In this document: positions 7,860 through 37,377 of the stretch, in pieces | How the letters are laid out: every line of letters starts with the position of its first letter | Numbering within the stretch: position 1 is the stretch's first letter | Origin: an uncultured Anaerolineae bacterium | GTDB taxonomy: Bacteria; Chloroflexota; Anaerolineae; JACIWP01 | Assembly (NCBI GenBank): GCA_938049385.1 | Contig: CALIBQ010000017.1 | Coordinates: forward strand, 1-50,824 | Reading direction: 5' to 3' | Length of the DNA stretch: 50,824 nucleotides | Program-made: the position numbers and the translations under genes | The notes under the pieces: generated by a model | Seen by the model: only the letters and a program-made list of their open reading frames with translations | Told to the model about the DNA's origin: nothing | Databases searched by the model: none

Positions 7860-9725
7860 TTATCTTCGCCACAGATCGTCGGCGATATCGTGCAGGCCGA
7901 GCCGGCGCAGGGTTTCCTCAGTGGGGATGGCGGCATCCAGCGTCCATCCCATTTCGCGCAGATGCTCCTGGATCATGGCCTCCACCTCGACCGTGACGCC
8001 GGCGGTCGGGCCGTCGGGGAGCGGCGGCCGGCCCAGGATGCGGTCCGGGAGCGGCCGTTGGAGCGGGTTGATGCCCTCCCGCACGTTGAAGGCCTGGCGC
8101 ACGTTGGCGATACGCTCGCCCACGGTCAGCACATCCTGCAGGGTATAGGTATGACCGGTGACGGCGGTCAGGAAATCGGGCATGAAGCTCACCGAAGTGG
8201 AGAGATACCCGAACAGGCACAAGCCGCTGGCGTTGACCACGTGGCAGAGACAGCTCGCCTCCTTGACCCATTTGCCGCGCCCCCTTTGCTGGGCGCGGTT
8301 GTCGCCGTAGGCCGGCCGCTGGGTGGGGAAGCCGGCCGCCACGTAGTACTGGCTGGCCTGGGTATGCCGGCCGGGGGTAGCGTCCATCTGGTAAATGACC
8401 GCCATGGCCGGCTCACAGCGGGGATCGTGCGCCGGCACTTCCTGGCCGCCGACGTGCATGGCCAGCGGCACAGCGGCCGGCCCGATGCGCTCCGCCGCCC
8501 GCATGACGCCGTCCGCCAGCAGGTCCCCAATGCCCTCGCGCCGGGCGATCATCTCCGTCAGGCGCACCGCCGCTCGACGGTCCCCCCAGCACAGTTCCAG
8601 CCCACCGGTGTCCTGCACCGTGATCAGTCCCTGCTCGAAGCAGTCGAAGGCGAAGGCCACCGCTGCGCCAGTCGAGATGGTGTCCAGGCCGGCGCGGTTG
8701 CAGATGTCATTGACCTTCGCCAGGGTAACATGGTCGTCAATCAGCAGGTTACTGCCGAACATGGACTCCGTCTCATATTCCGGTTGGTGCGCCCAGAACC
8801 TCTCGCCCTCCCACTCCATCTCGACCGTGCCCCAGCAGGCGATGGGACAGCGCCAGCAGTTCTCGCGCTCCTTGCGGTACTTGACCAGCTCCTCGAAGCG
8901 CAGAGGGGCGGAGCCGCGCGGCATATGGATGGTGCTGATGGCCCAGTTGCGGGTGGGCGAATCCCCCAGTTCGATGCAGAGCGCAGTAGCACCAGGTGTG
9001 CCGGTGGTGCGGTAGAAGTCGGAGAAGCCAACGCCGGCATTGATCTCCCCCACATATTTCTTGCGCGCCGCCTGCACCGCCTCGGGGTCCGCCACAGGCA
9101 CCTCGCCTTCCAGGAAGGCGACGACGGCTTTCACCTTTTTGGCGCCCATGGCCGCGCCCAGGCCGGAGCGGGCGGCGGCTCGGCCTTTCAGGGTGATGAC
9201 GCCGGCGATGCGGGACTGCTTCTCGCCGGCCGGCCCGATGCAGGCCACCTCCGCCTTCGGCCCGAACTCCGCCTTGACCCAATCCTCGACCGCATAGGTA
9301 TCCATGCCCCAAAGATGAGAGGCGTCGCGCAGTTCCGCCTGCCCATCCCGCAGGAAGAGATAGACTGGCTTCTCTGCCTGGCCGGTGAAGAAAATCATGT
9401 CGAACCCTGATTGCTTCATCGCCACGCCGAAGTTGCCGGAGCCGTTGGCATCTCCCCAAGTGCCGGTGAGCGGCGATTTGCCGAAGACGCCCCAGCGGGT
9501 GCCGGTGGGTGCCGGCGTGCCGGTCAGCGGCCCAGTAAAGAAGCCGAAGATGCTCCCCGGCGCCAACGGGTCGAGGCCTGCCGGCTGGCGGCTGTACAGG
9601 ACGCGTGCCGCCACGCCGTACCCGCCGACAAAATCGCGCAGGAGCGAGTCATCCGGGGTTTCCACCTTCATCTTACCCGTGCTGAGGTCCACCCAGAGGA
9701 ACCGGCCGGCGTATCCACCCAACAT
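7860..9725 (-). CDS. aor: Aldehyde:ferredoxin oxidoreductase (tungsten/molybdenum)
   Basis: A 621-residue AOR-family enzyme, close to the usual length of about 605-620. The N-terminal domain (GRFLWVDLSTGK, GFFTGPLTGT) binds the bis-pterin cofactor. The [4Fe-4S] ligands are C290-x2-C293-x3-C297 and C503, matching the spacing of the characterised Pyrococcus enzyme. QEVPAHDPR (428-436) is the conserved cofactor-binding stretch. The enzyme oxidises aldehydes to acids, or reduces acids, with ferredoxin in the cytoplasm. ATG at 9725 is chosen because the upstream frame extension (MFGLFPTL) is read from a MITE and because GGAGG precedes this ATG. It is the first gene of an operon with an amidohydrolase and an SDR. 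No MoaD-like or ferredoxin gene adjoins. Confidence 0.95.
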   Translation of the reverse strand: MLGGYAGRFLWVDLSTGKMKVETPDDSLLRDFVGGYGVAARVLYSRQPAGLDPLAPGSIFGFFTGPLTGTPAPTGTRWGVFGKSPLTGTWGDANGSGNFGVAMKQSGFDMIFFTGQAEKPVYLFLRDGQAELRDASHLWGMDTYAVEDWVKAEFGPKAEVACIGPAGEKQSRIAGVITLKGRAAARSGLGAAMGAKKVKAVVAFLEGEVPVADPEAVQAARKKYVGEINAGVGFSDFYRTTGTPGATALCIELGDSPTRNWAISTIHMPRGSAPLRFEELVKYRKERENCWRCPIACWGTVEMEWEGERFWAHQPEYETESMFGSNLLIDDHVTLAKVNDICNRAGLDTISTGAAVAFAFDCFEQGLITVQDTGGLELCWGDRRAAVRLTEMIARREGIGDLLADGVMRAAERIGPAAVPLAMHVGGQEVPAHDPRCEPAMAVIYQMDATPGRHTQASQYYVAAGFPTQRPAYGDNRAQQRGRGKWVKEASCLCHVVNASGLCLFGYLSTSVSFMPDFLTAVTGHTYTLQDVLTVGERIANVRQAFNVREGINPLQRPLPDRILGRPPLPDGPTAGVTVEVEAMIQEHLREMGWTLDAAIPTEETLRRLGLHDIADDLWRR

Positions 9726-9754
9726 TTCTGCACCTCCACGAAAATTGAGAATAG

Positions 9755-9925
9755 CGAGTGTTGGAAAAAGTCCAAACATTATATCTGTGGAAGCGGCCTA
9801 GCGGCAACGACTGCGAAGCCTGCACAGGCAGGCTTCGCGAAGTCGGCGTAGGCCGACTTCGCAGGCACACAGCCGCAGTTTCAACTGCCAGGCGATGAGC
9901 CAATACCCGCTTTTTCAACACCCTC
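9755..9925. mobile_element. MITE-like element, copy B, inserted in the AOR operon leader
   Basis: A 171-bp relative of the 2005-2188 element in the same orientation. The right end CTTTTTCAACACCCTC is identical; the left end reads CGAGTGTTGGAAAAAG. The interior shares long identical blocks, including GAAGTCGGCGTAGGCCGACT. It is flanked by AGAATAG at 9748-9754 and again at 9926-9932, a 6-7 bp target duplication. It sits between the AOR promoter (9990-10018) and the AOR start codon (9725), so every AOR transcript should carry its stem-loops. Confidence 0.8.
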
Positions 9926-9989
9926 AGAATAGGGCCCTGCGCAGGAGAAATGGGCTGATATGTCTGCTGGTCAGACCGACTCGAGGGTC

Positions 9990-10018
9990 ATTGTAGCATG
10001 CTTTGCACGCGCTGTCAA
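9990..10018 (-). promoter_or_regulatory. AOR operon promoter
   Basis: On the minus strand TTGACA (10013-10018), a 17-bp spacer and TACAAT (9990-9995). The spacer holds the imperfect inverted repeat GCGTGC-AAA-GCATGC, a possible operator. The leader to the AUG at 9725 is about 260 bases and includes MITE copy B. Confidence 0.75.
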
Positions 10019-10035
10019 TACGTCCTAGAACAACC

Positions 10036-10068
10036 AAAAAGGGGCCTGGCGACCAAGCGCCAGGCCCC
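10036..10068 (-). terminator. Rho-independent terminator of the tannase gene
   Basis: A perfect 11-bp stem GGGGCCTGGCG (10041-10051) and CGCCAGGCCCC (10058-10068) with a 6-base loop, followed on the minus strand by TTTTT (10036-10040). It lies 24 bp after the tannase stop and 18 bp before the AOR promoter. Confidence 0.93.
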
Positions 10069-12194: not shown

Positions 12195-12387
12195 CGGAGG
12201 GTGTGGAAAAAGAGAGGTGTGGGCATAATCTCCCTTTTTGAAGGGGATAAAGCGGCTGCTTTAGGGTCAGCGAACGAGCGTTCCCCAGTTTCCTCAAAGC
12301 ATGGGCCCAGGCATAGTGTCCTTCCCCAACCTTCTCACCGAGTTACCTTAAAGATGCTCGATTTTCCAGACCTTTTCAACACCTCCG
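12195..12387. repeat. MITE-like element with similar ends, copy C
   Basis: The left end CGGAGGGTGTGGAAAAAG and the right end, read on the minus strand as CGGAGGTGTTGAAAAGG, form an imperfect inverted pair of about 17 bp resembling the ends of the elements at 2005 and 9755. The interior is different and no flanking duplication is visible, so this is a distant or decayed relative. It ends about 25 bp before the -10-like sequence of the next operon. Confidence 0.45.
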
Positions 12388-36990: not shown

Positions 36991-37080
36991 TGGAGGGCGT
37001 TGAAAAAGTACTGCTGGCATCGGTAATTCAAAGCACGCCGTTCAGCCCACCCTTGCGATTTTTCCAAAACCATCCCCTTT
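36991..37080. repeat. Short element with MITE-like ends
   Basis: GGAGGGCGTTGAAAAAGT at the left and ATTTTTCCAAAACCATCCCC at the right form imperfect inverted ends around a 50-bp core. It begins a few bases after the NACHT-FGE stop codon and abuts the next repeat. Confidence 0.4.
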
Positions 37081-37083
37081 TTG

Positions 37084-37226
37084 GGGATGTTGAAAAAGCT
37101 CATCGCCCGGCAGTTGAAACGCTGGCAGTGCTTGCGAAACACTTCGCCTGGCGCTGAAGCGCCAGGCTTACGGTACCAAGTGCGGGGCTTCGCCTCCTCA
37201 GCCGGCGGCTTCCAGCCGCCGGCAAA
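37084..37226 (-). repeat. Degenerate MITE-like copy D (inverted)
   Basis: GGGGATGTTGAAAAAGCTCA and the following TCGCCCGGCAGTTGAAAC match, in reverse orientation, the right end of the 2005-2188 element (with a 10-bp gap). Two perfect 10-bp stems follow: GCCTGGCGCT/AGCGCCAGGC (37146-37167) and GCCGGCGGCT/AGCCGCCGGC (37201-37223). The other end is not recognisable. Confidence 0.5.
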
Positions 37227-37289
37227 CCTCCGACAAGCAGGCGACCGATCTCCTGGGCCAAATCGAGAGCGGCCAAGAAGGCACTGAAA

Positions 37290-37336
37290 CCTCATCCCTC
37301 TACACCCCTTCCCCGTGTAGGGGGATGAGGCGTTTT
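37290..37336 (+). terminator. Terminator-like hairpin downstream of the NACHT-FGE gene
   Basis: A 16-bp stem with one wobble pair, CCTCATCCCTCTACAC (37290-37305) and GTGTAGGGGGATGAGG (37315-37330), followed by CGTTTT. It lies about 300 bp after the stop codon and just before the next promoter. Confidence 0.65.
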
Positions 37337-37377
37337 GGGCCGCAGTCAACAACAATCTTTTTCCGCACCCTCCCTTT

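Follow-up and report, generated by a model that had tools for sequence, protein, structure and literature searches.

MITEs (non-autonomous mobile elements) of one family recur at a single fixed spacing upstream of promoters in genomes of the class Anaerolineae and leave the promoter intact, a pattern that is strongly supported within the class. One member, which is close to certainly a recent MITE, was found in the leader of a gene for an aldehyde ferredoxin oxidoreductase (AOR) family protein (PF01314, PF02730) from an uncultured Anaerolineae bacterium (genome G000); the whole stretch of 50,824 nucleotides that carries it is called the window below. This copy is an exception in that it lies inside the leader, whereas the site of the family copies, if recognisable, is ahead of a promoter and does not separate it from its gene. 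The explanation that best accounts for the data as a whole, and that we hold to be highly probable, combines a recent MITE ahead of the AOR gene, mobilisation of the IS5/IS1182 type, targeting of promoters at a fixed spacing, and an AOR copy that landed off-target. The AOR leader contains the following features.

7860-9725, minus strand: AOR-family gene with its true start at 9725 (open reading frame list, orthologues, domains).
9731-9737, minus strand: ribosome-binding site GGAGGTG of the AOR gene (sequence and congener leaders).
9748-9754, no strand: left copy of the target duplication AGAATA(G), read in the sequence.
9754-9925, minus strand (the AOR strand): MITE copy in the AOR leader, non-coding, 172 bp (empty site in two congeners).
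9754-9769, plus strand: left terminal inverted repeat (TIR) GCGAGTGTTGGAAAAA (16-bp TIRs, imperfect).
9910-9925, minus strand: right TIR GAGGGTGTTGAAAAAG, the exact family consensus.
9926-9932, no strand: right copy of the target duplication AGAATA(G), read in the sequence.
9990-10018, minus strand: AOR promoter TTGACA-17-TACAAT, 11 of 12 consensus bases, kept in two congeners.
10041-10068, minus strand: terminator-like hairpin behind the preceding gene and upstream of the AOR promoter (scan).

An earlier note on this DNA had described a MITE with a target duplication, AGAATAG on both of its flanks and a TTGACA-17-TACAAT promoter upstream of it, and had placed the element between this promoter and the AOR start codon. 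It can be seen that, first, AGAATAG is indeed present at 9748-9754 and at 9926-9932. The duplication measures 6-7 bp: judged by the family TIR it is AGAATA, the final G of the left copy being the first base of the TIR. Secondly, promoter (10018-9990, minus strand), element and ATG (9725-9723) follow each other in the order proposed, and the assignment to MITEs is upheld by the TIRs, the duplication and many genomic relatives. The N-terminal extension of the AOR frame (MFGLFPTL...) is false, as the note had said: that frame begins at 9779, within the element, and same-genus orthologues share the ATG at 9725-9723 behind GGAGGTG. The note had also predicted that near relatives would have the same leader with a single AGAATAG, and this was observed in both same-genus genomes, G001 and G002, the AOR orthologues of which are 94% identical. 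Their leaders align on both sides of the insert, with the same −35 and −10 boxes, one TATTCT, a GGAGGTG-type site and the start codon, and without the element. The MITE probably entered the AOR leader in the line of this species, after its split from the two sequenced congeners.

At least 40 relatives of the AOR insert are present in its own genome (66 matches, 40 of them with E <1e-32; 40 of the 196 first-look candidates were scored). The TIR was matched there with at most 2 mismatches at 193 places (104 + 89), whereas the reversed control gave 2 (2 + 0). Pairing of TIRs over the 289 kb analysed yielded 64 elements of 123-442 bp; pairs with more than 6 summed TIR mismatches, a size outside 85-460 bp or an overlap with a better pair were left out. 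By blastn, 52 of the 64 have the interior of the AOR copy, and others combine the same TIRs with interiors of different hairpin modules. Exact duplications of at least 5 bp lie beside 22 of the 64 paired elements, compared with about 0.6 in shuffled pairings. Further elements of this kind in the window are listed here.

2005-2188, no strand: second copy of the same MITE, with a 6-bp duplication (match search, TIR pairing).
12197-12386, no strand: element whose TIRs are related but whose interior differs (TIR pairing).
36993-37372, no strand: a single element or two, possibly nested, that combine related TIRs with other hairpin modules (TIR pairing).

The interiors in stretches L063, L065, L070, L085 and L090 of G000 and at 37083-37372 of the window draw on a shared stock of small G+C-rich hairpins in varying order, as if hairpin modules had been exchanged between elements with the same TIRs. 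No Rfam match at gathering scores was obtained in the whole window, and when hairpin conservation was assessed by covariation, an alignment of 43 copies, bad in the loops and hence of little weight for or against, gave a poor consensus of 10 pairs with none changed on both sides. The AOR insert itself is short, without a transposase, and has 16-bp TIRs, a target duplication, many copies, and both filled and empty sites, as a MITE should; an autonomous partner with the same ends occurs as a broken one in G000 and as an intact one in G194, a genome of another genus.

The relation to promoters was analysed at 168 TIR ends of the own genome, hits with less than 60 nt of flank being left out. Perfect outward-reading TTGACA hexamers start 10-12 nt outside the TIR at 26 of these ends, and at every other offset up to 59 nt they were found at 0-1 end. 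At the same 168 ends no comparable peak was given by perfect inward or reversed hexamers; once one mismatch is allowed, a peak is also seen for hexamers largely identical to TTGACA, as expected. All promoters counted here are predicted ones, i.e. consensus matches. When whole promoters were scored (TTGACA, 16-18 nt, TATAAT, at most 2 of 12 mismatches), a sigma70-type promoter reading outward, the −35 box of which lies 10-12 nt beyond the TIR, was present at 42 of the 168 ends, compared with 18 of 20,000 random positions from the same stretches. Counted per element (at most 3 mismatches, 9-13 nt, a cut passed by 56 of 20,000 random positions per side), such a promoter lies at 36 of the 64 paired elements (31 at one end, 5 at both) and at 21 of 39 unpaired ends. 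The other 28 paired elements, including the AOR copy and the three other window elements, have no promoter at that spacing, which counts against targeting. Among the genes behind the promoters are tRNA genes (a tRNA-Met pair and tRNA-Val, behind C48:29000 and C15:17254) and one that we take to be recA, its reading frame having been recognised by eye. Five elements of G000 (C9:40550-40734, C10:4648-5002, C10:20462-20875, C13:84348-84522 and C38:10213-10398) are flanked by a divergent promoter on either side, each −35 box being 10-12 nt away from the nearer element end; the two −35 boxes of the original site were therefore only about 16 bp apart.

A simple possibility is that the sequence is read directly, with the transposase recognising a TTGAC-like stretch 10-13 bp away from the cut and RNA polymerase playing no part. 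TTGACA is the strongest signal outside the TIR, and the promoter matches at both ends of five paired elements are what a symmetric target would give. However, a −10 box stands behind 25 of the 26 TIR-adjacent TTGACA hexamers, compared with 30 of the 113 others in the same DNA, and of the 118 ends with at least 2 mismatches in the −35 box, 17 match TATAAT at 32-35 nt with no more than 1 mismatch. Direct reading of the hexamer is thus unlikely, and recognition of the promoter as a whole is preferred.

The pattern on which promoter targeting rests was also observed outside the genus. Of 298 genomes of the class, five are rich in the TIR at no more than 1 mismatch (G000 86, G076 119, G080 153, G094 87, G105 101); lower counts were obtained for G082 (13), G024 (9) and G194 (8), and the remainder have at most 5 (G001 1, G002 0). 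The promoter peak appeared in stretches of four other genomes, 1-2 nt farther out (at most 2 mismatches), with 6 of 22 ends in G080, 7 of 23 in G076, 2 of 9 in G094 and 1 of 11 in G105, the last two being small samples. Over 12 whole class genomes, an exact TIR end followed by TTGAC after 9-14 nt was found 106 times, compared with 7 times at the control spacing of 19-24 nt; 3 of the 106 matches repeat a flank already counted in the same genome, and 3 of the 12 genomes have zero matches at the test spacing. In G080, a genome with about 150 TIR ends, elements in stretches L182, L184, L187 and L189 are only about 90 bp long, barely more than two TIRs.

Selection instead of targeting might give a similar picture, if insertions occurred anywhere and the survivors sat just outside a promoter, or if a TIR placed there helped the promoter. 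A site upstream of the −35 box is harmless, and copies ahead of housekeeping genes would otherwise be costly. Avoidance of harm would permit any distance beyond about 10 nt, yet the counts fall to 0-5 outside a range of 3-5 nt, and in four other genera with different interiors the spacing is equal within 1-2 nt. It seems quite improbable, then, that selection is the explanation, and we keep to targeting.

Eighteen promoter-side flanks of the own genome were searched in G001 and G002 as one joined query. Seventeen were found there with the promoter conserved (C81:9946 via its G002 copy L172; two pairs among the 17 are the two ends of one element each). The fixed spacing is thus one to pre-existing promoters, as expected of promoter-targeted integration. 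At 12 of the 17 congener flanks there was no TIR remnant of at most 5 mismatches and no interior match. A possible decayed remnant was seen in one or both congeners at five (C37:1574, C48:29000, C49:8290, C10:4648 and C81:9946), the clearest being C10:4648 in G001, with 1 mismatch to the TIR; random stretches reach at most 5 TIR mismatches in 106 of 5000 cases. Some insertions would therefore be older than the species split, which is a point against the main explanation, and the family is one that was active both before and after this split. The congeners, without intact elements, keep apparent decayed TIRs at some of the same promoters (G001:C181 L153, L157; G002:C127; others), and from these sequences it would seem that they may have lost the family's activity.

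That the promoter belongs to the element, as an outward promoter carried along beyond the TIR, would give a constant spacing in itself, but the duplications directly abut the TIR, the first 10 nt outside it have no base preference and nothing is shared there except the two hexamers, and in congeners these promoters precede the same genes with no element present; on these flank sequences and element-free congener promoters we rejected it as having almost no likelihood.

One own-genome element carries a broken transposase with a DUF772 domain, and an intact transposase with this TIR was not found in that genome, where the broken copy is the only one. Transposase relatives were found in 8 of the 11 other genomes searched (23 loci) and not in the TIR-rich G076 and G094, both drafts. 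A first inspection took in 11 of the 23 loci; in it an intact transposase, an open frame of 428 codons (P0001; true start within), was seen between the TIRs of a G194 element. The G194 element has an 8-bp duplication, CGCTGAGC, on each side, and 13 nt separate its left end from the −35 box ahead of a tRNA-Leu gene. P0001 contains the domains DDE_Tnp_1 and DUF772 and passes the IS5 model NF033581 (151.3 bits, cut-off 140); it is below the IS1182 cut-off (212.4 bits against 270), yet its IS1182 score exceeds its IS5 score. After overlaps were merged, the 24 loci (the 23 plus the own-genome copy) gave 18 distinct places, of which 2 without an inward-facing TIR were left out; at 10 of the resulting 16 a promoter lies outside one or both ends (at most 3 mismatches, 9-15 nt). 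When the intact transposase was searched against the phylum, 5 of 400 genomes were hit at E ≤1e-40, the own genome among them, and the ends of the other four matches were not recognisable as pairs by this TIR. A contig scan with the same query returned 2 loci: one is the same G194 element (Anaerolineales bacterium UBA6128), and the other, from a Patescibacteria record, is distant. Most likely, the family is moved by a DDE transposase of the IS5/IS1182 type.

Far more often than by chance, one end of a family member lies at a constant distance from a sigma70-type promoter of the host that reads outward, the −35 box beginning 10-12 nt beyond the TIR (10-15 nt for other genera). The staggered cut accordingly falls near −42 to −47, and insertion seems to take place about 45 bp ahead of transcription starts. 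In the mechanism proposed, the transposase, alone or via a host protein, would recognise the promoter as a whole; RNA polymerase holoenzyme would most likely be on the promoter at recognition, and the element would be joined at the upstream edge of the complex, where its landing would spare the promoter. In general terms, transposons and the MITEs they move would select targets by recognising promoter-bound sigma70 RNA polymerase and insert at the upstream edge of the complex, about 45 bp before the start, and would be to bacteria what promoter-guided Ty integration is to yeast; to this proposal we give an even chance.

Yeast Ty1 and Ty3 integrate near tRNA gene starts, without harm to the gene, guided by the transcription machinery. 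The present family resembles them in its fixed landing place beside a promoter, guidance by the machinery being here something that we only infer. It differs in that elements, enzyme and polymerase are unrelated and that the sites are sigma70-type promoters of protein and tRNA genes. As in the IS5 family (NF033581), the intact transposase scores above the cut-off and has DUF772 and DDE_Tnp_1; we know of no promoter spacing as a feature of IS5. The transposase is also related to the IS1182 family (212 bits by the IS1182 model, cut-off missed). IS1272/TnSha1 of staphylococci, of the IS1182 family, chooses hairpin stems, often terminators, and not a sequence, and is reported to cut hairpins bluntly, without duplications, in the portion of the paper drawn on here (PMC4923244). 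As far as that portion goes, both have as target a kind of site rather than a sequence. Unlike IS1272, the present family shows duplications of 6-8 bp at sites on the upstream edge of promoters, which is not the pattern of hairpin targeting (stem insertion, no duplication).

In the sections of a prokaryotic MITE review considered here (PMC10969869), Correia, ERIC, RUP and BOX elements are short, non-coding and mostly intergenic, with TIRs and duplications, and some carry promoters. Concerning insertion sites these sections name intergenic preference and clusters and, unlike what is seen in this family, no fixed promoter distance. They also place a Correia element directly downstream of the mtrCDE promoter, and the AOR-leader copy is similarly placed downstream of its promoter. 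A literature search, which covered open-licence papers only and is thus weak evidence of novelty, gave no description of fixed-spacing insertion beside ordinary promoters in bacteria.

The AOR copy would be an off-target insertion in a transcribed leader. Two features within it are of concern for this leader.

9811-9864, no strand: two adjacent G+C-rich hairpins, mid-element (inverted repeat; RNA fold of the leader).
9778-9807, minus strand: promoter-like TTGCCG-18-TATAAT within the element (promoter scan; TATAAT in 1 of 43 aligned copies).

The insert lies about 64 nt downstream of the −10 box of the old promoter, and any transcript from that promoter therefore includes the element. The insertion would lengthen the leader by about 172 nt of hairpin-rich RNA and may supply a second promoter, located in the element. 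It may thereby have rewired expression or mRNA stability, as the earlier note had considered. The AOR copy is alone among the 43 in having TATAAT, most copies carrying TTGTAT there, and the start predicted from TTGCCG-18-TATAAT is about 46 nt ahead of the AOR start codon. Judged from this predicted promoter, transcription could also begin inside the insert, which comes near to something that the earlier note had named as speaking against its reading, namely a start downstream of the element. It is conceivable, at slightly less than even chances, that the insertion is neutral, with the old promoter still serving and the leader hairpins doing nothing: promoter, ribosome-binding site and frame are all intact, and no terminator-like site was found inside the insert by the scan. 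Against neutrality, the fold of the leader RNA is far more stable than that of shuffles (z −4.39), and the AOR copy has acquired a TATAAT. Directly downstream of the AOR −10 box, at 9960-9985 of the window (minus strand), the sequence GGTCTGACCAGCAGAC is kept in both congeners. We take it to resemble the operator of a FadR-type GntR regulator, and the AOR gene may be regulated there.

At the AOR gene, leaders that carry and that lack the element form a clean natural pair. How transposons find landing places that spare the host is a long-standing question, and fixed-spacing promoter insertion is a bacterial case of it. If it is the promoter or the polymerase that serves as signal, each insertion would mark a used promoter, so that promoters of uncultured bacteria could be mapped with such elements, and the transposase would offer a means of placing DNA at promoters.
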